Shown here in pieces: positions 27,332-49,866 of a stretch of DNA of 64,000 nt. How positions within the stretch are numbered: position 1 is the stretch's first letter; every line of letters begins with the position of its first letter. Below the pieces are notes generated by a model, which was not told the origin of the DNA, did not search any database, and saw only the letters and a program-made list of their open reading frames with translations. The DNA is taken from assembly GCA_947589005.1 (NCBI GenBank), contig CANPZO010000008.1:1-64000 (forward strand), read 5' to 3'. This stretch comes from an uncultured Clostridia bacterium. Lineage in GTDB: Bacteria > Bacillota > Clostridia > UMGS1883. Both the position numbers and the translations under genes were made by a program.

Positions 27332-29740
27332 ATGAAAAACTTCAGGAAATTTCTGAGCCTTCTGCTGGCGGCGGCCATGGTGCTGGCCGCGCTGCCGGCC
27401 ATGGCCGAGGACGGCGTTACCCGGGCCTTTGCCATCCACAGCTTTGTGGAAGTGTTGGGGAAGGAAAACTTTGCCGTTCGGCAGGGCGACATTTCCGGCT
27501 TTTCCGACGCCGCCGAGGTGCCCGAGGAATACCGTGAGGATATGGAGATAGCCGTGGCCAACGGCATTATTCTCGGCTCCGGCGGCAAGCTACTGCCCAA
27601 TCAGGAGCTTAGCCGCCTCGAGGCAATGATAATTTTGGGCCGGTTCCTTGACGGGCCGGAGGAGGTGCGTCCCGGCATCGAGTTCACGGACGTGCCCGAC
27701 TGGGCCGAGGAGGATATCGACCGGCTTTACCGGGCCGGCATAGTCAACGGCTACGGCGGGGGAAGGCTGGGCTCGGACGACCCGGTCAGCCGCGAGCAGC
27801 TCGCCCTCCTGACCGGCAGGGTGAGGGCGGCCTATCCTTGGACGGCCGACCTTAAGGACGACTATTACTCCTCGGTGAACGGTGAATTTCTCAAGTCCAA
27901 CAGCGTGAACGACCGCCACCCCGAGAATTCCTATTCCTCGCGGCTCAGAGGGAGCATATCCGCTTACCTCGTAAAGCGCAGCGACGAGCTGCTGGCGCGG
28001 CTGAACGGCGGCGAAAAGCTTAATCAGGCCGAGGAGCTGGCCGCCCAGATTTACGGGCTGGCTTTGGACGGCCCCGAAGATGAAAGGCTGACGGAGCCCG
28101 TGGACAAATACCTGGCGCTGATAGACGGCTGTGAGGACGCTACGGATTTCGGGCGGGTCAACGGCATCGTGCTGAGGGACCTTTCCACGCCCATAATGTT
28201 TGAAGCGGTTCTTCCCTGCCGTGTGTCGGCCGACGGTTACCTTGAGGCCGTGGACGGGGTGTATCTCGAGTATGTCGATACCGGCGTGGACAAGACCTAT
28301 TGGCAGGACGACCCCGAGGGGGTGCGCGATGCCTATGAGACCTACGCCGCCAAAATTTTTGACCTTGCGGGGATAGAGGTCTCCGCCGCCGCCGTGTCCG
28401 CCGCCGCCGACTTCCAGCGCGACGTGGCCTTGGCGGGACTTAGCGCGTCGGAGTATTATTCCATGAAGGAACCCGAGTGGCAGTACGTTTTCGATTGGGA
28501 AGAGCTTGGCGGAATGTATGCCGGCAAGTGGAAAAATCCCCTGCCCTATATATTCTTTTCGCTGGACCCCAAGGAGATGACCGGCCTCGACGCATATGTC
28601 GTCCCCGACCGGGGCGAAACGGACAAGGCCGTGGAGCTGATGAACACCGTTGATGCCGAGACCGTCAGGACGGTTTGCAAGCTCAACCTCATCAGCCGGC
28701 TGTCCGACTTCCTGCCGCCCGAGTTCAGAGACGCCGAAAGCGAGTTCACAATGGCGGCCATGGGCGTCGGCAGCCAGTCATCGTTGAAGGCCCACGCCGC
28801 CGGTCTCGCGTCCACGATGTTCCCCGCGGCCTATGAGGAGGATTTTGTCGGGACTTTGGACTACGACAAAAAGTTTTTACAGGATATGACCGATGATATA
28901 GTGAATGTTTTTGAGCAAAAGTTCGCCTCGAGCGGGCGCATTTCTCCCGAAACCGCCGAGCGCGCCCGGGCCAAGCTGGATAGAGTGGAAAAGGCCGTCT
29001 GTGACTACGACAGGGCCGATAGCGTCTCTTACAGGGTGACATTTGACACCGAAAAGTCCTTTTTCGCCAACGGCGTGGAGTCCCTTGAGTCTGTCGGCGG
29101 CGACTATTTCTCCGTGGTGGTGCTGGTGGACGACACATTCCCCAGCTATACGGTCAACGCCTCTTACGGCACTTATGCCAACAGGATAGACATCTACGGC
29201 GGCATACTCGGCGCCCCGTATTATGACCCCTCGGCGTCGTATGAGGAAAACCTCGGCTCCATCGGCTTTGTGATAGCCCACGAGCTCTCCCACGCCTTTG
29301 ACGGCAACGGTAGCCTGTATAACGAAAACGGCGACCTTGAGCCCTGGTGGGAGGAGGACGACTACGAGAGGTATGACGAGTTTGTGGATAAGCTCGGCGC
29401 CTATTACGGCGGTTACGCCAACGCCTTCGGCGAGAAGGTGGACAGCGGGCTTACCAGCAACGAAAATATAGCCGACATCCTTGCCATGGAGTGCGTCATC
29501 GCTCTGGCGAAGGAAAAAGGGCTTGATTTGGATAAGGTGTTCCGCTCCTTCGCGAAAAGCTGGGCCGCGATATATACGCCGAAGTACGCCCGCTATCTGT
29601 CCCGTGTGGACAACCACTCTCCGAACAACGCCCGCGTCAACGCCGTCCTGAGCAACTTTGACGAGTTTTATGAGACCTACGGCATAACCGAGGGCGACGG
29701 TATGTACGTGCCGCCCGAGGAAAGGGTCAGATTTTTCTGA
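27332..29740 (+). CDS. Secreted M13 (neprilysin-like) metallopeptidase with N-terminal SLH domains
   Basis: 802 residues. A signal peptide ending ALPAMA is followed by two to three SLH-like repeats (about 30-165; ISGFSDAAEVPEEYR, IEFTDVPDWAEEDI), which anchor proteins to the cell wall. From about residue 170 it is an M13 peptidase: NSYSSRLRG region, zinc site HELSH (650-654), third ligand Glu711 in NENIAD, and the C-terminal HSPNNARVN. The M13 helical cap region is present, so it should cut oligopeptides at the cell surface. SLH placed before M13 is an unusual order. It is the last gene of the operon, and a terminator follows. Confidence 0.9.
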   Translation: MKNFRKFLSLLLAAAMVLAALPAMAEDGVTRAFAIHSFVEVLGKENFAVRQGDISGFSDAAEVPEEYREDMEIAVANGIILGSGGKLLPNQELSRLEAMIILGRFLDGPEEVRPGIEFTDVPDWAEEDIDRLYRAGIVNGYGGGRLGSDDPVSREQLALLTGRVRAAYPWTADLKDDYYSSVNGEFLKSNSVNDRHPENSYSSRLRGSISAYLVKRSDELLARLNGGEKLNQAEELAAQIYGLALDGPEDERLTEPVDKYLALIDGCEDATDFGRVNGIVLRDLSTPIMFEAVLPCRVSADGYLEAVDGVYLEYVDTGVDKTYWQDDPEGVRDAYETYAAKIFDLAGIEVSAAAVSAAADFQRDVALAGLSASEYYSMKEPEWQYVFDWEELGGMYAGKWKNPLPYIFFSLDPKEMTGLDAYVVPDRGETDKAVELMNTVDAETVRTVCKLNLISRLSDFLPPEFRDAESEFTMAAMGVGSQSSLKAHAAGLASTMFPAAYEEDFVGTLDYDKKFLQDMTDDIVNVFEQKFASSGRISPETAERARAKLDRVEKAVCDYDRADSVSYRVTFDTEKSFFANGVESLESVGGDYFSVVVLVDDTFPSYTVNASYGTYANRIDIYGGILGAPYYDPSASYEENLGSIGFVIAHELSHAFDGNGSLYNENGDLEPWWEEDDYERYDEFVDKLGAYYGGYANAFGEKVDSGLTSNENIADILAMECVIALAKEKGLDLDKVFRSFAKSWAAIYTPKYARYLSRVDNHSPNNARVNAVLSNFDEFYETYGITEGDGMYVPPEERVRFF

Positions 29741-29834: not shown

Positions 29835-30606
29835 CTACATGACGAGGTCGGTAAAAGGCTCTATGTCAAGAATAGTGGTGTAAAATCCTGCAAAGAATTT
29901 ACGAAAGTGATATTTGTCCACGATCTGTACGGCGTTCTTGAAATAAATACCGGCCATATCGGCATAAGGCCTCCACATATCCGGCACAAAGAATTTAACC
30001 TTATCTCGTTTTTCCTTGCCATAATCTCTCAAATATTCGATTAGATGGCTGTTTCTTATGTCCGGCAAAATGTCCAATACCCGCCCGTTCGCCGGATCGG
30101 TAAGTATGCACTGGTACTTTTGAGCGCCGGTACTGCCTTTAAATTCGTCTATGGCGAAAATCTCCGGAAGCCCGGTAGGATGGGACATTTCCACCGCGTC
30201 GAATATCCTGACAACAGACGAAACCGCCCCCTTATCCCTTGCAACGAAGGAGAAGGAACGTTCATTGCTCAAAGCCTCAATAATCTTAGAGGTAAAACGC
30301 GGCATCATTTTCCGGCGTCGGGCGACGAAAGTGTTTTTCTCGGGGAAGCACTTGCCACGGCCGGTGTAGCGGTATCTGCGGCGGCGATATGCCAGAGTGA
30401 GGCTGCGTCCAGCCACTGATAGACCATTATGTGACGGAAGCGGTAGTCGTGGACGCGGGAAGTCTTGCAGCCGCAGGCCGGGCAGATGTGCTCTGTTACG
30501 GGCAGTTCCGCATGAACCGTCAGCTTGTTTGCGGCGGTTTCCACTTTTTTACTATTGCCCCTTGCAAATCGAGAATTTCTGTAGTATAATTGTTGTTAGA
30601 GAGCAT
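29835..30606 (-). pseudogene. ISL3-family transposase, frameshifted and 3'-truncated
   Basis: Reading on the minus strand from ATG 30606 (AGGAGG upstream): MLSNNNYTTEILDLQGAIVK, the classical ISL3 N-terminus. A one-base loss in an A-run near 30548 shifts the frame into the HICPACGCKTSRVHDYR zinc finger. A second shift near 30434 moves into the frame with AGRSLTLAYRRRRY, then the catalytic-core text EIFAIDEFKGSTG, KYQCILTDP, FFVPDMWRPYADMAGIYF and IVDKYHF. Directly after DKYHFRKFFAG the frame runs into the left terminal repeat, so the C-terminal half of the transposase was deleted. No active enzyme can be made. Confidence 0.85.
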
Positions 30607-30758: not shown

Positions 30759-31988
30759 TCACTCCGCAAACGCATACCGTCCCATGAACAGTATCTCGCC
30801 GCTGGTGTTGTCCTTTATTACGTAGGTGAAGGGGTGGTCAAGTTTCATCTCCACAGGCTCGGGATACTCGCGCAAGCCGGTGCCCACCATCATTATCGCG
30901 GTTACGGCGGCGGCCTCGGTGCCCTCCTCGTCCACATTTATATAGGTCTTGTGCAGCACCTCGTCGATTTTAAAATCTCCGCCGTCAAACATGGAGCCAA
31001 ACTGGGCGTCGTTGTCAAAGGCCCGGTTTATGCCAAGGGCCTTAAGCGCGTCGTTCAAATTCAGGTCAAACTCCGTCTTAAATTTCGGCATGGAAAGCTT
31101 CACATACGCGCTGCTCAGCTCCGCATTGTTCAAAAGCTCCTCGGGATTTTCATCATTGCCAAGTATAACGTACATACTCACGTCGATGTCGTTATACCTG
31201 GTTCGGCCCTCTAAAAAGCCGTTTTCGTCCACACGGTTCTCGTAATTCCGGTAGGGAAGCTCGGCTATCTGTGTCTCGCCGTCGGAATAATAGTTCATGT
31301 AGTCGGTCCTGCGCATCATGTCCACCTGGCCGACCTTCCCCGCGGCGTCGGTAAAGTTTTCCCTTTCGGTCGCTCCCTTCGCGAACTCGTTCTGCCAGTG
31401 GGCCTTAAAGTATACGGCGTTGACCAGCGCGGCGGCAAATCCGCTGTCGCTGATTATTCCGGGTATCTTTTCCCTTGTTTTGTCGCTGACCCAGCCATTT
31501 ATTGTGGAAACGGCGTTATTGTCGTTCACCTCGTCGGCCTCGGCGTCGTAATAAGTCTCAAGAGTGTTTTTGTAGTCCCGGGCGAACCTGCTGCCCGTGC
31601 GGTCAGTGTTCAGCCATATCGAGTTGGCAATGTCAAGGCTGAGTATGTCCGCCTGACTGTAGCGGTCTATCATCTGCCGCGAATATAGGTTGAACTCGTC
31701 CAGCTCCGCAATATCGCAGGCGGCCAGAATTTCGCTCCGCGTCTCCCCCTCCGCGCCGTTGGCGGCCAGCGCGAGGGCCATTTTCACCGAAAGCGGCGAA
31801 AACATATAGTTTTCGTCCCGGGGCATTTGAGCGTTTAACCTGTCGGCAAAGGTGGCGCCGTCGTCCACGCAAACCACTTCCTTTTCCGTTTCTCCGTTCA
31901 CATTCGGCCCCTGTGCGGGAGCGCCCGACAGAGCCGCAAGCATCGACGCAAGTATCGACGCGAGTATTGAAGCTAATGTACTTTTCAT
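30759..31988 (-). CDS. Secreted serpin-type protease inhibitor
   Basis: 410 residues. A signal peptide built from three ASIL/ASML units is followed by a complete serpin fold: ENYMFSPLSVKMALALAANGA, ANSIWLN, ALVNAVYFKAHWQNEF, LSMPKFKTEF, and the hinge DEEGTEAAAVTAIMM leading into the reactive-centre loop MVGTGLREYPEP, then DHPFTYVIKDNTSGEILFMGRY. The Ala-rich hinge is intact, so it should be inhibitory, trapping a serine or cysteine protease outside the cell. M17 of the open frame (31988) follows AAAGGA and is chosen over upstream starts. Gut bacteria use serpins against host or competitor proteases; the target is unknown. Confidence 0.9.
   Translation of the reverse strand: MKSTLASILASILASMLAALSGAPAQGPNVNGETEKEVVCVDDGATFADRLNAQMPRDENYMFSPLSVKMALALAANGAEGETRSEILAACDIAELDEFNLYSRQMIDRYSQADILSLDIANSIWLNTDRTGSRFARDYKNTLETYYDAEADEVNDNNAVSTINGWVSDKTREKIPGIISDSGFAAALVNAVYFKAHWQNEFAKGATERENFTDAAGKVGQVDMMRRTDYMNYYSDGETQIAELPYRNYENRVDENGFLEGRTRYNDIDVSMYVILGNDENPEELLNNAELSSAYVKLSMPKFKTEFDLNLNDALKALGINRAFDNDAQFGSMFDGGDFKIDEVLHKTYINVDEEGTEAAAVTAIMMVGTGLREYPEPVEMKLDHPFTYVIKDNTSGEILFMGRYAFAE
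31938..31974 (-). repeat. Three 12-bp tandem units in the serpin signal peptide
   Basis: Three consecutive near-identical 12-bp units encode ASIL-ASIL-ASML, the hydrophobic core of the signal peptide. Such in-frame units can expand or contract by slippage and change the length of the core. Confidence 0.7.
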
Positions 31989-32113
31989 TTTTACCATCCT
32001 TTCCTGCATACATAGATTAGACGCAGATAAATCCAAAAAAGTTCCGGATAGAATGTAAAAATTTTGTACAAACCGTCAAGCCTCAATCACAGGGGTGTCG
32101 AAAGACCCCGGCG

Positions 32114-44116: not shown

Positions 44117-44257
44117 CTTGCAGGGGCGGGCGCCGCGCGTCCGCGTTCATATATTTACGGTAACAAATACTCGAATTTGTAAATATATTTGTCAAAATAA
44201 CGTCTATGATTGTTATCATAAACGAAATGCAGGGACGGCCGATGCCGCCCCTGCAAG
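44117..44257. repeat. Inverted-repeat-bounded 141-bp intergenic segment
   Basis: Perfect 13-bp inverted ends CTTGCAGGGGCGG (44117-44129) and CCGCCCCTGCAAG (44245-44257). Inside are a nested pair ATATATTTAC/GTAAATATAT and, at 44229-44254, a GCAGGG..CGGC-CGAT-GCCG..CCCTGC hairpin. It carries no reading frame of note and lies between two converging genes. It may be a MITE or REP-like unit. Confidence 0.5.
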
Positions 44258-44300: not shown

Positions 44301-46382
44301 TTACTGTTGCAGTCTGCCTTCCTTCCGGCGTTTCAGATAATCCTTTACCTCGTCCACGACCTGACCGTGGAGAAGAATGACCGCGAAGAGGTTGGGTATC
44401 GCCATAAGGCCGTTAAAGGTGTCGGAGATGTTCCACACCAGATCCAGCGAGCCCACGCAGCCAAGGATTATGGCGCAGATGAATATCACCTTGTACACGG
44501 GCACGGCCTTGAGGCCGAACACGTACTCGATACCCCTCTGGCCGTAGTAGGACCAGCCAAGTATGGTGGAGAAGGCGAAGAGGGCAAGGCTGACGCTGAT
44601 AAAGATGCCGCCGAAGTTTATGCCGCCCGCGCTGAACACGGAGTTGAAGGCCGCCGTGGTAAGCTGGGCGCCGTTAAGGGCGTTGCCGGCCTCGTCAAAT
44701 TTGGTGACGCCGGAGGCGGGGTCGTAAACGGTGGTGAGTATGGAAAGGGCGGTTATGGTGCAGATGCAGATGGTGTCCGCAAACACCTCGAATATGCCCC
44801 ACATACCCTGAACGACAGGCTCCTTGACGTCGGAGGCGGAGTGTACCATTACGGACGAACCGAGACCGGCCTCGTTGCTGAACACGCCCCGGGCGATGCC
44901 GAAGCGCATGGCCTGCATCACGGTATAGCCGAGAAAGCCGCCGCCGACGGCCTTAAGGTTGAAAGCGCCGCGGAATATCATTCCGAAGGCCGCCGGAACC
45001 TTGCCGGCGTTGATTATTATGAGGGCGACGCCGCCCACTATGTAAAACAGCGCCATAAACGGAACTATTTTTTCGGTAACCTGAGCTATCCTCTTTATGC
45101 CGCCGATGATTACCAGCGCGGCAAAGACCATGATAACTATGCCTATAACCCACTTGGGTATAACGGGGAAGGTGCCGTTCACCGCCGAGGCGATGGAGTT
45201 GGCCTGGCTCAGGTTGCCTATGCCGAAGGACGCGAGTATGCAGAAGAAGGAGAAGATAACGGCCAGCCACTTCATCTTAAGGCCGCGGTCCATGTATATC
45301 ATGGCGCCGCCGACCCAGTCGCCCTTCTCGTTTTTATAGCGGTACTTTATGCCCAGCACGTTCTCGCTGAAGTTGGTCATCATGCCCAGGAAGGCGCTGA
45401 GCCACATCCAGAAGATGGCGCCGGGGCCGCCGCTGACGATGGCCGTGGCGACGCCTGTGATGTTGCCGGTGCCCACCGTGGCCGCAAGGGCGGTGGAAAG
45501 GGCCTGGAACTGGCTGATGGCCTTTTTGTCGTCGGTCTTGCGGACGCTCTTTTTCTTGAATATCGCAAGAATTGTCTCGTCAAACCAAAGCTTGATTTTG
45601 GTGACCTGAAACACCTTGGTTCTGAGGGTGCAAAGCAGACCCACGAACAGGAACACCACCAGCATTATCGGGCCCCACACAAAGCCGTTGACGGCGTCGT
45701 TCACCCGCGCCACCGTTTCAAGGAAGGTATAGGGTATCTTTTCAAATTTTAAGCCGTTCTCTTTGGCCCAGTCCTTGGCGTAGCTGTCGCTGTGGGCCAT
45801 TACGGTGCCGGTCTTGTCAAAGGCGCCCTCGCCTATCTCGCTCACGCTGTCGGGCAGGGAAACGCTGCTCACGCCGGAGCCGGCAAAAGCGCCCGCGCCT
45901 ATGGAGCTGACTCCGTCGGGCAGCTCTATCCCGCTCAGCGCGGAGCAGCCGGCAAAGGCGTTTTCGCCTATGGCCTCAAGGTTGCCGCTCTTGTCAAAGA
46001 CTACCGTCGTCAGCGAGGTGCAGCCCTCGAAGGCCCCCTCGCCTATTTCCGTCATATAGACGGGCAGGGAAACGCTCTTAATCTCGGTATCTCCGGAAAA
46101 AGCCTTGTCCATTATCCGGCGGACGGGGATTGGGTCCTCCTCGTCGCCCAGCTCGGCGCGGACCTTTATCTCGGTCACACCGGCCTCGCCGCCCGTCAGC
46201 ATGGCGAACGGATTGCCGTGCTCATCTTCGTCGATGACGTAGGAAAGCCCGTTCACGGTCATCATTTCGCCCTGGGGGAGCTTTTCGGCCATCGCCGCCA
46301 TGGGCAGAGCCATGATTGCCAGCACCAGCGTCAGCGAGGCCAAGGCCCCCAGCCGCCGGAGCGCGTTGCGGTATCTCATCAT
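44301..46382 (-). CDS. Alanine/glycine:cation symporter fused to BspA-like leucine-rich repeats
   Basis: 693 residues, about 220 more than an ordinary AGCS transporter. A signal-type N-terminus (ALASLTLVLAIMALPMAAMA) is followed by BspA/LRR_5-type repeats at about 85-195: IGEGAFEGCTSLTTV, IGENAFAGCSALSGI, IGAGAFAGSGVSSV and IGEGAFDKTGTV. From about residue 225 comes the complete AGCS core: helix FVWGPIMLVVFLFVGLL, GTGNITGVATAI, SNEAGLGSSVMVHSAS and about ten helices. The LRR part should lie outside the cell. The whole frame is continuous without a stop or shift, so the fusion is real in this sequence. GAGGAGG precedes the ATG pair at 46382/46379. Confidence 0.88.
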   Translation of the reverse strand: MMRYRNALRRLGALASLTLVLAIMALPMAAMAEKLPQGEMMTVNGLSYVIDEDEHGNPFAMLTGGEAGVTEIKVRAELGDEEDPIPVRRIMDKAFSGDTEIKSVSLPVYMTEIGEGAFEGCTSLTTVVFDKSGNLEAIGENAFAGCSALSGIELPDGVSSIGAGAFAGSGVSSVSLPDSVSEIGEGAFDKTGTVMAHSDSYAKDWAKENGLKFEKIPYTFLETVARVNDAVNGFVWGPIMLVVFLFVGLLCTLRTKVFQVTKIKLWFDETILAIFKKKSVRKTDDKKAISQFQALSTALAATVGTGNITGVATAIVSGGPGAIFWMWLSAFLGMMTNFSENVLGIKYRYKNEKGDWVGGAMIYMDRGLKMKWLAVIFSFFCILASFGIGNLSQANSIASAVNGTFPVIPKWVIGIVIMVFAALVIIGGIKRIAQVTEKIVPFMALFYIVGGVALIIINAGKVPAAFGMIFRGAFNLKAVGGGFLGYTVMQAMRFGIARGVFSNEAGLGSSVMVHSASDVKEPVVQGMWGIFEVFADTICICTITALSILTTVYDPASGVTKFDEAGNALNGAQLTTAAFNSVFSAGGINFGGIFISVSLALFAFSTILGWSYYGQRGIEYVFGLKAVPVYKVIFICAIILGCVGSLDLVWNISDTFNGLMAIPNLFAVILLHGQVVDEVKDYLKRRKEGRLQQ

Positions 46383-46412
46383 TATTCCTCCTCGTTAAAA
46401 AAAGATACATAC

Positions 46413-46441
46413 ATTTTATATTTATGCCCATGGTTTGTCAA
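46413..46441 (-). promoter_or_regulatory. Promoter of the LRR-AGCS gene
   Basis: Minus-strand TTGACA (46441-46436), 17 bp, TAAAAT (46418-46413). Confidence 0.78.
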
Positions 46442-46500: not shown

Positions 46501-47706
46501 TCAAGCATTGTCCAGCTCTTTCAATAAACGTGGGAAAATTTCGAGGCTCCGCCGGAGTATGCCCTTCATATGAGCGATGGCCACGCCGTAATTGGTGATG
46601 GGCACGTTTTGGTCAAGGGCGCACTTCATGCGGTATTTCATCTCACGCTCGGTGAGCATACAGCCCCCGCAGTGGATAACCAGCGAATATCCGCTCAGGT
46701 CCTCGGGGAACTCACGCCCGGAGGTGAAGCTCAGCTCCGGCTCCGCGCCGGTATACTCACGGAGCCACCGTGGGAGCTTTACGGTGCCGATGTCCTCGCA
46801 CTGACGGTGATGGCTGCAGCCCTCGGAGATAAGGACCCTGTCGCCGGTCCTGAGACGGTCGATGGCGGCGGCGCCCTTCACCGCGGTTTCCAACAGGCCC
46901 TTGTAACGGGCCATGAGTATGGAAAAGGAGGTGAGCTTTATGTCCGGAGGGGTCTCGGCGGCGGCCAGCGAAAACGCCTGACTGTCGGTTATTACCAGAG
47001 AAGGCTTTTGGGCCAGGCTTTTAAGGGCGGCGGCGTATTCGGTCTCACGCACAACGAGGGCGGCGGCGCCGGCCTCCAGCACGTCGCGTATGGTCTGCTG
47101 CTGAGGGAGTATCAGCCGTCCCTTTGGGGCGGCGGAGTCTATGGGCGTTATGAGGACGACAGTATCCCCGCCGCTTATCAGGTCGCCCACGATGCGCAGC
47201 CTTTCGCTGTCGCTTTTTATCATCACGGAAAGCCGTTCCTTCAGCTCACGGATACCGGTCTTTTCAAGGGCGCTGACGGCCATTACGTTTTCGCCGGCGA
47301 TGGCCGTGGGGCCAAGGTCACACTTGTTGGCGGCCAATATATAAGGTACGTTTTTCTTTTTAAACGCCTCTATCAGCTCACGGTCGGCGGCGGCCAGTCC
47401 CTCGGCCGCGTCGAATACCAGCACGGCGATGTCCACCTTGTTCAGCACCTGCACGGCCTTTTTCACGCGCAGGCCGCCCAGCTCGCCCTCGTCGTCGATG
47501 CCGGGGGTGTCCACTATCATAACCGGGCCGAGGGGCAGAAGCTCCATTGCCTTGTACACCGGGTCGGTGGTGGTGCCCTTTACGTCGGAGACCACCGCCA
47601 GCTCCTGACCGGTGACGGCGTTGACCAGGCTTGACTTGCCGGCGTTGCGCCGGCCGAAAAAGCCGATGTGTACCCTCTCGGCGGAGGGCGTTTCATTGAG
47701 TCCCAT
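46501..47706 (-). CDS. hydF: [FeFe]-hydrogenase maturation GTPase HydF
   Basis: Scaffold and carrier that receives the H-cluster precursor made by HydE and HydG and loads it into the hydrogenase. 401 residues: an N-terminal GTPase domain (FGRRNAGKSSLVNA, DTPGIDD, NKCDLG), a dimerisation domain, and the iron-sulfur domain with EGCSHHRQCEDIG and HCGGCMLTE, which are specific to HydF. ATG 47706 shares one base with the stop codon of the upstream gene (TGATG) and has AAAGGAAG before it; the frame extends to 47742 inside the upstream gene but that start is unlikely. It is translationally coupled to an apparently unrelated exoprotein gene. Confidence 0.94.
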   Translation of the reverse strand: MGLNETPSAERVHIGFFGRRNAGKSSLVNAVTGQELAVVSDVKGTTTDPVYKAMELLPLGPVMIVDTPGIDDEGELGGLRVKKAVQVLNKVDIAVLVFDAAEGLAAADRELIEAFKKKNVPYILAANKCDLGPTAIAGENVMAVSALEKTGIRELKERLSVMIKSDSERLRIVGDLISGGDTVVLITPIDSAAPKGRLILPQQQTIRDVLEAGAAALVVRETEYAAALKSLAQKPSLVITDSQAFSLAAAETPPDIKLTSFSILMARYKGLLETAVKGAAAIDRLRTGDRVLISEGCSHHRQCEDIGTVKLPRWLREYTGAEPELSFTSGREFPEDLSGYSLVIHCGGCMLTEREMKYRMKCALDQNVPITNYGVAIAHMKGILRRSLEIFPRLLKELDNA

Positions 47707-49766
47707 CAAAATCTTCCTTTCAGTTTTCGCAGCAGCGCCCAAAGCCCAATAAGGGCCAAAATCAGCGCCCCGGCCGCAAGAGGCCAGACCCCGCCGCTTC
47801 TCACCGTGTATTCCTCTCCGCAGCTGGCGCAGACGTAGAGAGTGGTGCTGCCGAAAATGCTTTTATCAGTAACGGCGCCTTTGCCGAAGCTGTGTCCCGT
47901 AACGGGGATTACCTCGTCCTCGTTTTCACCGCAGGTGAGGCAGGTTCTGCGGCGGATGCCCGTCTCGGTGCAGGAGGGTTCCTCGGCCCGGTACCAGTCG
48001 CCGAAGCTGTGCCCCTCCACCCGGTACGGCTCGTCCTTCGAGCCGTCGCCCCCTATGAAGGAGGCGTTATCCATATCCAGATAAAAGGCCGGCCTTATGC
48101 CGTTGGAGGACCGGACGGCGGCGATGGAATGTATCCAGCCGTCGAGGGTAACGGCGCGGACGTTGCAGCCCTGCTCCGCGTCAGCGTCACGGAGCCACCA
48201 CACCGCGCTGAGGTCCGCCGAAAGGTCCTCGCCGCCGGCCTCGTTCAGGTTCACGGCGTTGGCGGTGGGTCTGGCGGTGAGGAAGCTTCCGAAGTCGTTT
48301 TTCACCAGATTGGCCTCTCCTATGCTCAGCAAAAACACCCGGTCATAGGTAACGGAAGCATAGGCCGAGGAATAGTTGCCGAGATTGTTCACATTTCTCA
48401 GAGACTGCATCGGCTCCGAGCCAAGCGTACTATCGTCAATGTCGCCGGTGTAGATGACCGTCCGCACGGGCACCCGCGCTATTATGGGGCGCTCCTCGGG
48501 AGAAAAGCTCGTCAGAAAGCCCTTTTCCTTAGAGTAGCCGTTATTGCCCTCGCAGCGGTCGGAGGCGGGGGCGTTGCCGCAGGGCCAGTCAACGGCGGCG
48601 TCCTCGGAGTTGAGCCAGGCCCGTATATTCGACATGGCCCAGTTATTGCTGCCGCTGCCGTCCCGAAGCTCGTCTCCGTGATCGCCGGAGGCGTCAAAGG
48701 ATTTAAAGCTGAGTATTCGGTCGCTGAGCATCAGTGGGCCGTTTTCGTTTATATCCACGCAGCGCCAGAGTATTTCCTCGCCGTTATAGCGCCCGGCGGA
48801 AAGATAGTCCCCCTCGGTTATGGAGGAATACGCCCCCCTCAGGGTAAGGCGCTCGGCATTGTCCGCCGCCGAGCCCTTGTCCAGCGGCAGGGACAGTATT
48901 TCGTCAGAGACATAGTAGGGCGAATTTTCGTAGCCGTTGCCGCCTATGGCCGTTATCTCGTCCTTGACATATATCGCCGGCCGGACGCCGACGGAGCTGT
49001 CGAAGGAGTCCGCGAAAAGCACCCGTCCGTCCGGATAAACGCAGCGCACCGACTCGGTAAACTCGGCGTTGCCCAGGCTGTCGCGGAGCCAGTAGTAGCC
49101 GCTGCCGAGGCTTTCAAGGTTCTTGATGTTGCCGGTCTGGTCCAAAGCCGCCCGCGTGGGAGCGGCGACGAAGTCGGTGGGGAAATTGGTCATGACCAGC
49201 TCCATTTGGGATATATTCGGGCAAAACACCCGATCCTCGGTGACGACGGCGTAAGCCTCGTCATAATTCTGCACGGTCTTGGCGAACTGGCCCGTGGAAT
49301 TGTAAAGATGGACGGCGCCGCCCTCGTCGGCGGAGCCTGCGTCGGCCTCGTTAAGGGCGCTCCTGTTTTCGGCGGTGAGTATCAGCTTCCGCTCCTCCGG
49401 AGAAAACCCGCTGAGGAAGCCGGGTTCGTCGGCATAGGCGTTGCCGTCGGCGGTATAGCCGTCGGGGGCCTGTCCCTCCCAGTCAACGGCGGCGTCCTCG
49501 CTGTTGAGCCATTTCCTGAGCCATGACCTGTCCCAGCGGGAGAGACCCGCGGAATATGCCTTAAAGCAGATTATGTCCCTGCTGATAAACAGGAGGCCGT
49601 TGCCGTCCCTGCCCACGCAGCGCCAGATAAGCGGCCGGCCCATATAGCTGCCCAAGCGCAGATAATTGCCGGGGCGGAGCCGCACCGCGGAAACGTCCCC
49701 CGCCATGGCGGAGAAGGACAAAACCAACATCAAAGCGGCCAGGGCCGCGGAAATTATTCTCTTCAT
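47706..49766 (-). CDS. Secreted, membrane-anchored protein with two DUF6273-type domains
   Basis: 686 residues. Signal peptide (MKRIISAALAALMLVLSF), then two related domains of about 270 residues, each with LIWRCVGRDGNGLLFIS-type openings, W-L-N-S-E-D-A-A-V-D-W, GFLSGFSPEER, YWLRDS/WWLRDA and VRPAIYV/IRPAFYL. This is the pattern of DUF6273, which resembles formylglycine-enzyme/C-type-lectin-like folds. A C-terminal pair of CxxC stretches (CLTCGENEDE, CASCGEEYT) precedes one membrane helix and a basic tail. ATG 49766 is supported by GAAAGGGTGG. Function unknown; probably displayed on the cell surface. It is coupled to hydF. Confidence 0.8.
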   Translation of the reverse strand: MKRIISAALAALMLVLSFSAMAGDVSAVRLRPGNYLRLGSYMGRPLIWRCVGRDGNGLLFISRDIICFKAYSAGLSRWDRSWLRKWLNSEDAAVDWEGQAPDGYTADGNAYADEPGFLSGFSPEERKLILTAENRSALNEADAGSADEGGAVHLYNSTGQFAKTVQNYDEAYAVVTEDRVFCPNISQMELVMTNFPTDFVAAPTRAALDQTGNIKNLESLGSGYYWLRDSLGNAEFTESVRCVYPDGRVLFADSFDSSVGVRPAIYVKDEITAIGGNGYENSPYYVSDEILSLPLDKGSAADNAERLTLRGAYSSITEGDYLSAGRYNGEEILWRCVDINENGPLMLSDRILSFKSFDASGDHGDELRDGSGSNNWAMSNIRAWLNSEDAAVDWPCGNAPASDRCEGNNGYSKEKGFLTSFSPEERPIIARVPVRTVIYTGDIDDSTLGSEPMQSLRNVNNLGNYSSAYASVTYDRVFLLSIGEANLVKNDFGSFLTARPTANAVNLNEAGGEDLSADLSAVWWLRDADAEQGCNVRAVTLDGWIHSIAAVRSSNGIRPAFYLDMDNASFIGGDGSKDEPYRVEGHSFGDWYRAEEPSCTETGIRRRTCLTCGENEDEVIPVTGHSFGKGAVTDKSIFGSTTLYVCASCGEEYTVRSGGVWPLAAGALILALIGLWALLRKLKGRF

Positions 49767-49834
49767 GAGCGTCACCACCCTTTCGGCGAGGAGCCGCGGA
49801 GACAGCCGCCGGACCGACCGGCAAGGCTGCGGCG

Positions 49835-49866
49835 TAGGCAATGGGGAGTCGACTCCCCATTGCCTA
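49835..49866. repeat. 32-bp perfect palindrome in the DUF6273-hydF leader
   Basis: TAGGCAATGGGGAGTC is followed directly by its reverse complement, centred between 49850 and 49851, with no spacer and no mismatch. It lies 69 bp before the start codon, inside a leader of about 150 nt. Confidence 0.85.

Follow-up and report, generated by a model that had tools for sequence, protein, structure and literature searches.

A predicted exported leucine-rich-repeat ectodomain joined in one frame to an intact alanine/glycine:cation symporter in two species of one Clostridia genus

We identified a gene whose single reading frame joins a predicted exported leucine-rich-repeat (LRR) ectodomain to an intact alanine/glycine:cation symporter (AGCS), within the 64,000-nucleotide stretch of Clostridia DNA that we analysed (the window). 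Sequence comparison demonstrates the fusion both here and in a second genome of the same genus, and supports the view that it is a real, working-looking gene that is rare or unique among the sampled relatives. The window genome, labelled G000, is a draft assembly of 38 contigs.

The open reading frame at 44301-46382 on the minus strand encodes 693 amino acids, starts with ATG and has zero internal stops in its translation. This single frame comprises a predicted signal peptide, an LRR_5 domain of the BspA type and the whole of an AGCS symporter, the arrangement that the initial annotation had read from the sequence, and the profile searches confirm the two domains. The LRR_5 profile PF13306 matches residues 86-191 (83.6 bits against a cut-off of 27.7, E 1.4e-23), and the alignment resolves four full repeats (about residues 86-190) and a partial terminal repeat. 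At residues 40-66 a beta-hairpin caps the N-terminal end of the ectodomain, and at 201-208 a short helix caps its C-terminal end. Membership of the AGCS family is indicated by two profiles, both above their curated cut-offs: PF01235 at residues 282-690 (473.4 bits against 24) and TIGR00835 agcS at residues 236-682, over the full model (1-424 of 424; 471.5 bits against 272.65). The family motifs GTGNIxGVA and RGVFSNEAGLGS are present, with residues 304-312 and 498-509 invariant in the alignment and also over 45 sequences. The transporter part begins at about residue 219, which corresponds to position 45728 and lies close to the junction previously placed near 45700. The signal peptide, which bears on the surface export of the LRR, was called from hydropathy and by eye. 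This gene is the sole AGCS gene of its genome (a 2.1-Mb draft, 93.5% complete). In the direction of transcription, the features of the locus are as follows.

46501..47742, minus strand: HydF gene (TIGR03918), upstream neighbour of the fusion gene in G000 and G006
46413..46441, minus strand: candidate promoter-like TTGACA-17-TAAAAT, 11/12 consensus matches, a consensus match only
46387..46392, minus strand: Shine-Dalgarno AGGAGG, called from its sequence and its spacing to the ATG at 46382
46287..46382, minus strand: predicted signal peptide, residues 1-32; hydrophobic segment 13-31 behind a basic n-region, probable cleavage between AMA and E, character kept in G006
46128..46286, minus strand: ectodomain N-terminal cap (beta-hairpin), residues 33-85; strands 40-43, 46-52 and 58-65, pLDDT about 95 from residue 41
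45795..46127, minus strand: LRR_5/BspA-type repeats, four full and a partial fifth, residues 86-196; PF13306, alignment, fold matches to 6mlx, 4fs7 and 4gt6
45717..45794, minus strand: C-cap helix and junction, residues 197-222 (AHSDSYAKDWAKENGLKFEKIPYTFLE); 88.5% identity to G006, pLDDT in the 80s
44301..45716, minus strand: AGCS symporter, residues 223-693, with amphipathic helix 220-235, extra transmembrane (TM) segment 238-254 and LeuT-fold core from about 284; profiles, model and 6cse match
44228..44255, minus strand: terminator-like hairpin 3' of the fusion gene, 12 pairs (9 GC) and a T-rich tail, a consensus match only

The promoter-like match, the AGGAGG and the invariant motif residues agree with the earlier judgement that a good promoter, a ribosome site and intact AGCS motifs are in place. 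A glycine riboswitch was also looked for, and no Rfam match was found upstream of the fusion gene or of its relatives.

Among the eight genomes of the genus sample, G006 carries the same fusion, a single frame of 686 amino acids that matches over its full length with 83% identity in the genus search. The two genomes have the same gene order, DUF6273, HydF, fusion gene, zinc-finger protein, SigH and NFACT. Their synonymous divergence of about 0.7-1 indicates that they represent distinct species, and the junction is therefore backed by two assemblies. This bears directly on the danger of an assembly error or sequencing frameshift at the fusion point, which had been raised at the outset and which a draft in 38 contigs might invite. 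In the separately assembled G006, a contig of that genome carries the fusion between the same flanking genes and at this synonymous divergence; an assembly artefact was accordingly rejected, and we regard a chimera as vanishingly improbable. A secreted DUF6273 protein (47706-49841, minus strand, in the window) is encoded just upstream of HydF at all the HydF loci read in the genus.

Besides G000 and G006, five genus members (G002, G003, G004, G005 and G007) contain a complete orthologous AGCS gene, with 81-84% identity and matching residues 219-693 only; in G001 the AGCS gene is cut by a contig end. The frames of these five measure 483-490 amino acids, begin at the native N-terminus with a Met of their own, lack the LRR and lie at a different location. 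In the alignment, their ordinary start MDKF... is swapped for EKIPYTF in the fusion protein. In the unfused genomes where HydF was found, other genes follow it. Close relatives with separate genes had been named in advance as grounds for rejecting the fusion, and in the literal sense these five are such relatives; yet G006 shares the fusion, so that the pattern points to a recent fusion rather than to an artefact. In a maximum-likelihood tree of AGCS proteins the two fused proteins pair (support 95/94) and are sister to the five unfused ones.

The surroundings of the unfused genes vary. An M13 peptidase is followed by AGCS at a distance of 110-132 bp in G002, G003 and G007 (SLH domain confirmed in G007), and a gene for a secreted LRR_5 protein lies directly downstream of AGCS in G003 and G007. 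An LRR gene also lies near a different AGCS in G010 and G013. No LRR gene was found beside AGCS in G002, G004 or G005, and a general rule of LRR genes next to AGCS was rejected on that account; the M13 gene is likewise absent at the AGCS of G004 and G005. The regions flanking the best 80 loci of named species contained no LRR frame either. As a separate observation, L055:9229-11457 and L056:194-2524 (minus strand), directly downstream of unfused AGCS genes, encode LRR_5 proteins that are secreted and have a copper amine oxidase N1-type domain (PF07833) at the C-terminus. The block DUF2344-DUF5662-M13 is kept in the window, but no AGCS stands behind the M13 gene.

27332..29740, plus strand: M13 peptidase with SLH domains, whose orthologue directly precedes the unfused AGCS in G002, G003 and G007
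29835..30416, minus strand: partial ISL3 transposase where relatives have AGCS (PF01610, residues 2-90 of the 240 of the model)

G006 has the same block, followed by an unrelated gene that is ComM/YifB-like by eye. The window also contains a serpin gene (30759-32036, minus strand; PF00079, E 5e-83), a kind uncommon in bacteria. As judged from the gene sequences and their order, the simplest history places the origin of the fusion in a single lineage of two species, in which the AGCS gene was also relocated. In a single event or in closely spaced events, AGCS would have moved behind HydF and gained an LRR 5' part; we infer both the direction in which the gene moved and the part played by the IS element. 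The search for a donor of the LRR part found no close source, the best LRR matches in the genus being about 35-49% identical and the longer ones being secreted LRR proteins.

In the literature searched, no description of an LRR-AGCS fusion was found, nor a paper that joins the names PF13306 and PF01235. We searched for both domains in one frame at increasing taxonomic distance. There was no second case in 28 genomes of the order, which hold 44 AGCS copies, no further case in a sample of 391 genomes of the class, and none in a sample of 398 genomes of the phylum with a junction-spanning query. Among 84,980 genomes of named species, the best 80 loci, a set from which very near genomes may be missing, likewise contained none. 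These distribution searches are samples judged on the matches listed, in which "not found" is not "absent". Apparent matches reaching upstream of AGCS in G127 and G681 were dismissed as read-through, with no LRR on inspection, and long AGCS frames in G138, G126 and G116 proved by eye to have an untranslated or unrelated upstream part and no LRR. The search for other proteins of this architecture, which had been suggested as a check, thus showed G006 alone among the matches listed from the sampled genomes.

Codon comparison of G000 with G006 reveals selection on both halves. The AGCS part has 94.7% identity and a dN/dS of 0.02-0.045 (codon bootstrap 0.025-0.068), and the ectodomain 57.7% identity and a dN/dS of 0.32 (codon bootstrap 0.22-0.49), so that the LRR half evolves about 5-15 times faster. 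The best conserved stretch of the ectodomain is the junction, residues 197-222. In the repeats, hydrophobic positions of the buried type are 79% conserved, compared with 51% at the others. The ectodomain omega and this difference suggest that the fold of the LRR is retained, with drift or adaptation at its surface, and the substitution pattern indicates that this half is held by purifying selection. Its faster divergence would also suit a near-neutral origin, in which an LRR gene fused by chance when AGCS relocated and was then tolerated, for example as a supplier of signal peptide and translation start. That the fusion is restricted to two species in the samples searched agrees with such an origin, as does the loss of the ancestral linkage behind M13, where the window has the partial ISL3 transposase. 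A tolerated passenger should decay, yet the core positions are kept, omega is well below 1, and the ectodomain has acquired no stop or frameshift at dS of about 1; we therefore consider the near-neutral account unlikely.

For structure prediction, the two halves were modelled from separate alignments, because LRR fragments were misaligned onto the transporter in the full-length alignment. Modelled alone, the ectodomain reached a mean pLDDT of 86, with 149 of 214 residues at 90 or higher and block averages above 90 for residues 41-190. Its model superimposes on 6mlx (TM 0.61, rmsd 2.0 over 152 columns), to which it also has a sequence match (E 4e-27), and on 4fs7 and 4gt6; this predicts a fold of the TpLRR subclass. 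The predicted AGCS half matches 6cse with a Z of 51.4 over 428 residues at 1.9 Å and 45% identity, as expected for an AgcS/LeuT fold with one extra N-terminal TM segment. With other LeuT-fold proteins the alignment begins only at about residue 284 and leaves this extra segment (238-254) in front. The full-length model has a pLDDT of 82, falling to about 50-60 at residues 101-150, where just two sequences informed it. Both halves are thus confidently predicted to fold, one like AgcS and the other like BspA-type proteins, which answers the structural check proposed with the initial annotation.

The predicted topology is compatible with an exported N-terminal domain. In LeuT the N-terminus of the core fold is in the cytosol. 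With one extra TM segment in front of such a core, the AGCS N-terminus is predicted to lie outside, and the loop behind the first TM segment, which is strongly basic, agrees with this orientation. A signal peptide and an N-terminal ectodomain would therefore fit the native topology of the symporter.

In the full model, the junction passes through an ordered strand (212-215) and a surface helix (220-235) straight into the first TM segment (238-254). Rigid coupling would need a junction of this kind, ordered and better conserved than the ectodomain as a whole (88.5% against 58%), and the LRR might then work as a sensor or lid that alters transport, or signals through the transporter, when a ligand or partner binds. 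We regard such gating as possible but doubtful, since a conserved junction is also expected for plain folding or insertion, the first TM segment lies outside the LeuT core and offers no obvious gating route, and neither a fused nor an adjacent gene encodes a signalling partner. The junction might alternatively separate two products of one transcript, with the LRR cleaved after export or AGCS also made from an internal start; close to it, the window has in-frame ATG (M196) and GTG (V224, V227) codons. This we consider very unlikely: M196 is Lys in G006, no Shine-Dalgarno sequence precedes M196, V224 or V227 by eye, the usual start MDKF... is replaced, and no second signal-peptidase-like AxA motif was seen by eye before the first TM segment.

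We favour, with about even confidence, a role of the LRR in docking the importer or tethering it in the inner zone of the wall. On this reading, an AGCS-type alanine/glycine importer, coupled to a cation that is probably Na+, would have gained a secreted N-terminal LRR_5 ectodomain in the two-species lineage, and the signal peptide would export it to the outer face of the membrane, where the short conserved junction would hold it directly over the transporter. As a docking module, the LRR could keep the importer beside a ligand. Candidate ligands are peptidoglycan, its stem peptides, wall polymers and partners in the membrane or wall; another is an adjacent surface or wall enzyme whose activity frees alanine or glycine. 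Peptidoglycan stem peptides contain alanine and often glycine. In a monoderm cell of the Clostridia type, an ectodomain of this size (about 180 residues) would stay in the inner wall zone and not extend across the wall, and adhesion to a host surface is therefore unlikely. The M13 peptidase next to AGCS in three unfused relatives, with the LRR gene in two, gives circumstantial support to a link with extracellular peptide breakdown. Against docking counts that these neighbours are not universal, both being absent in G004 and G005 and the LRR gene in G002. Two further points against it are that a short array of four to five repeats, evolving fast, might contribute little, and that the ligands of BspA-type LRR proteins are varied and mostly unproven.

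Compared with known systems, each half is already of a known kind, an AGCS family member and a true LRR_5 domain; the new point is their combination. The closest solved transporter is AgcS of Methanococcus maripaludis (6cse/6csf; TC number 2.A.25). The transporter half of the fusion covers nearly the whole solved chain of 6cse with the family motifs intact, whereas AgcS has no signal peptide or LRR and the fusion has about 220 residues ahead. The ectodomain shares its repeat consensus and fold with BspA/TpLRR proteins (PF13306; TpLRR, 6mlx; the F. prausnitzii cell surface protein 4gt6; 4fs7), and its C-cap (...SYAKDWAKENG...) resembles that of the secreted LRR proteins L063 and L064. In contrast to the short array joined here to a multi-pass transporter, BspA/TpLRR proteins are free or wall-anchored and mostly have more repeats.

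Other extracellular additions to AGCS were found as well. Three genomes from a single family within the same phylum (G664, G749 and G428) encode an AGCS followed by an extra C-terminal TM segment and an SBP_bac_3 domain (L171:1233-3524, L172 and L173:1050-3308); PF00497 was confirmed in L171 and L173, and L172 has the same arrangement by eye and sequence likeness. Like the LRR fusion, these proteins combine a symporter and its own ectodomain in one chain, but their domain is C-terminal, behind the extra TM segment, and has an amino-acid-binding fold. In G342, L187:1135-2985 (minus strand) encodes AGCS with an insertion of about 100 amino acids, SpaA prealbumin-like (25 bits against a cut-off of 23.1), in an outer loop before the last third, and the AGCS proteins of L176:297-2102 (minus strand) and L188:1528-3303 have unassigned insertions of similar length at about the same place. 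The AGCS of L095:5803-7494 (RGIG2434) has a signal peptide and about 60-75 acidic, Ala/Glu-rich N-terminal residues. L187 and L095 thus resemble the LRR fusion as extracellular additions on AGCS in Clostridia, that of L095 also N-terminal, and differ in being a loop insertion or a low-complexity stretch with no LRR. The statement that AGCS proteins normally lack an ectodomain therefore holds for nearly all copies and not for these cases; from the sequences, AGCS has acquired outside domains rarely but repeatedly.

These comparisons suggest that the outward N-terminus, one outer loop and the C-terminus of AGCS can accept grafts, a point of use to annotation and to studies of how transporters evolve. 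To our knowledge, LeuT-fold secondary transporters rarely carry recognition domains in the same chain. We tentatively extend the comparison to a receptor-transporter, improbable as it may be, in which the LRR would recognise a wall-derived or partner ligand and position or gate a Na+:alanine/glycine importer, as one of several independent AGCS ectodomain grafts (LRR, SBP_bac_3, SpaA-like); AGCS would then be a recurrent scaffold for ligand-guided uptake. The fusion is young and well bounded, and its genus also has unfused orthologues with 81-84% identity; together they form a natural before-and-after pair in which the contribution of an LRR to an amino-acid importer can be tested directly.
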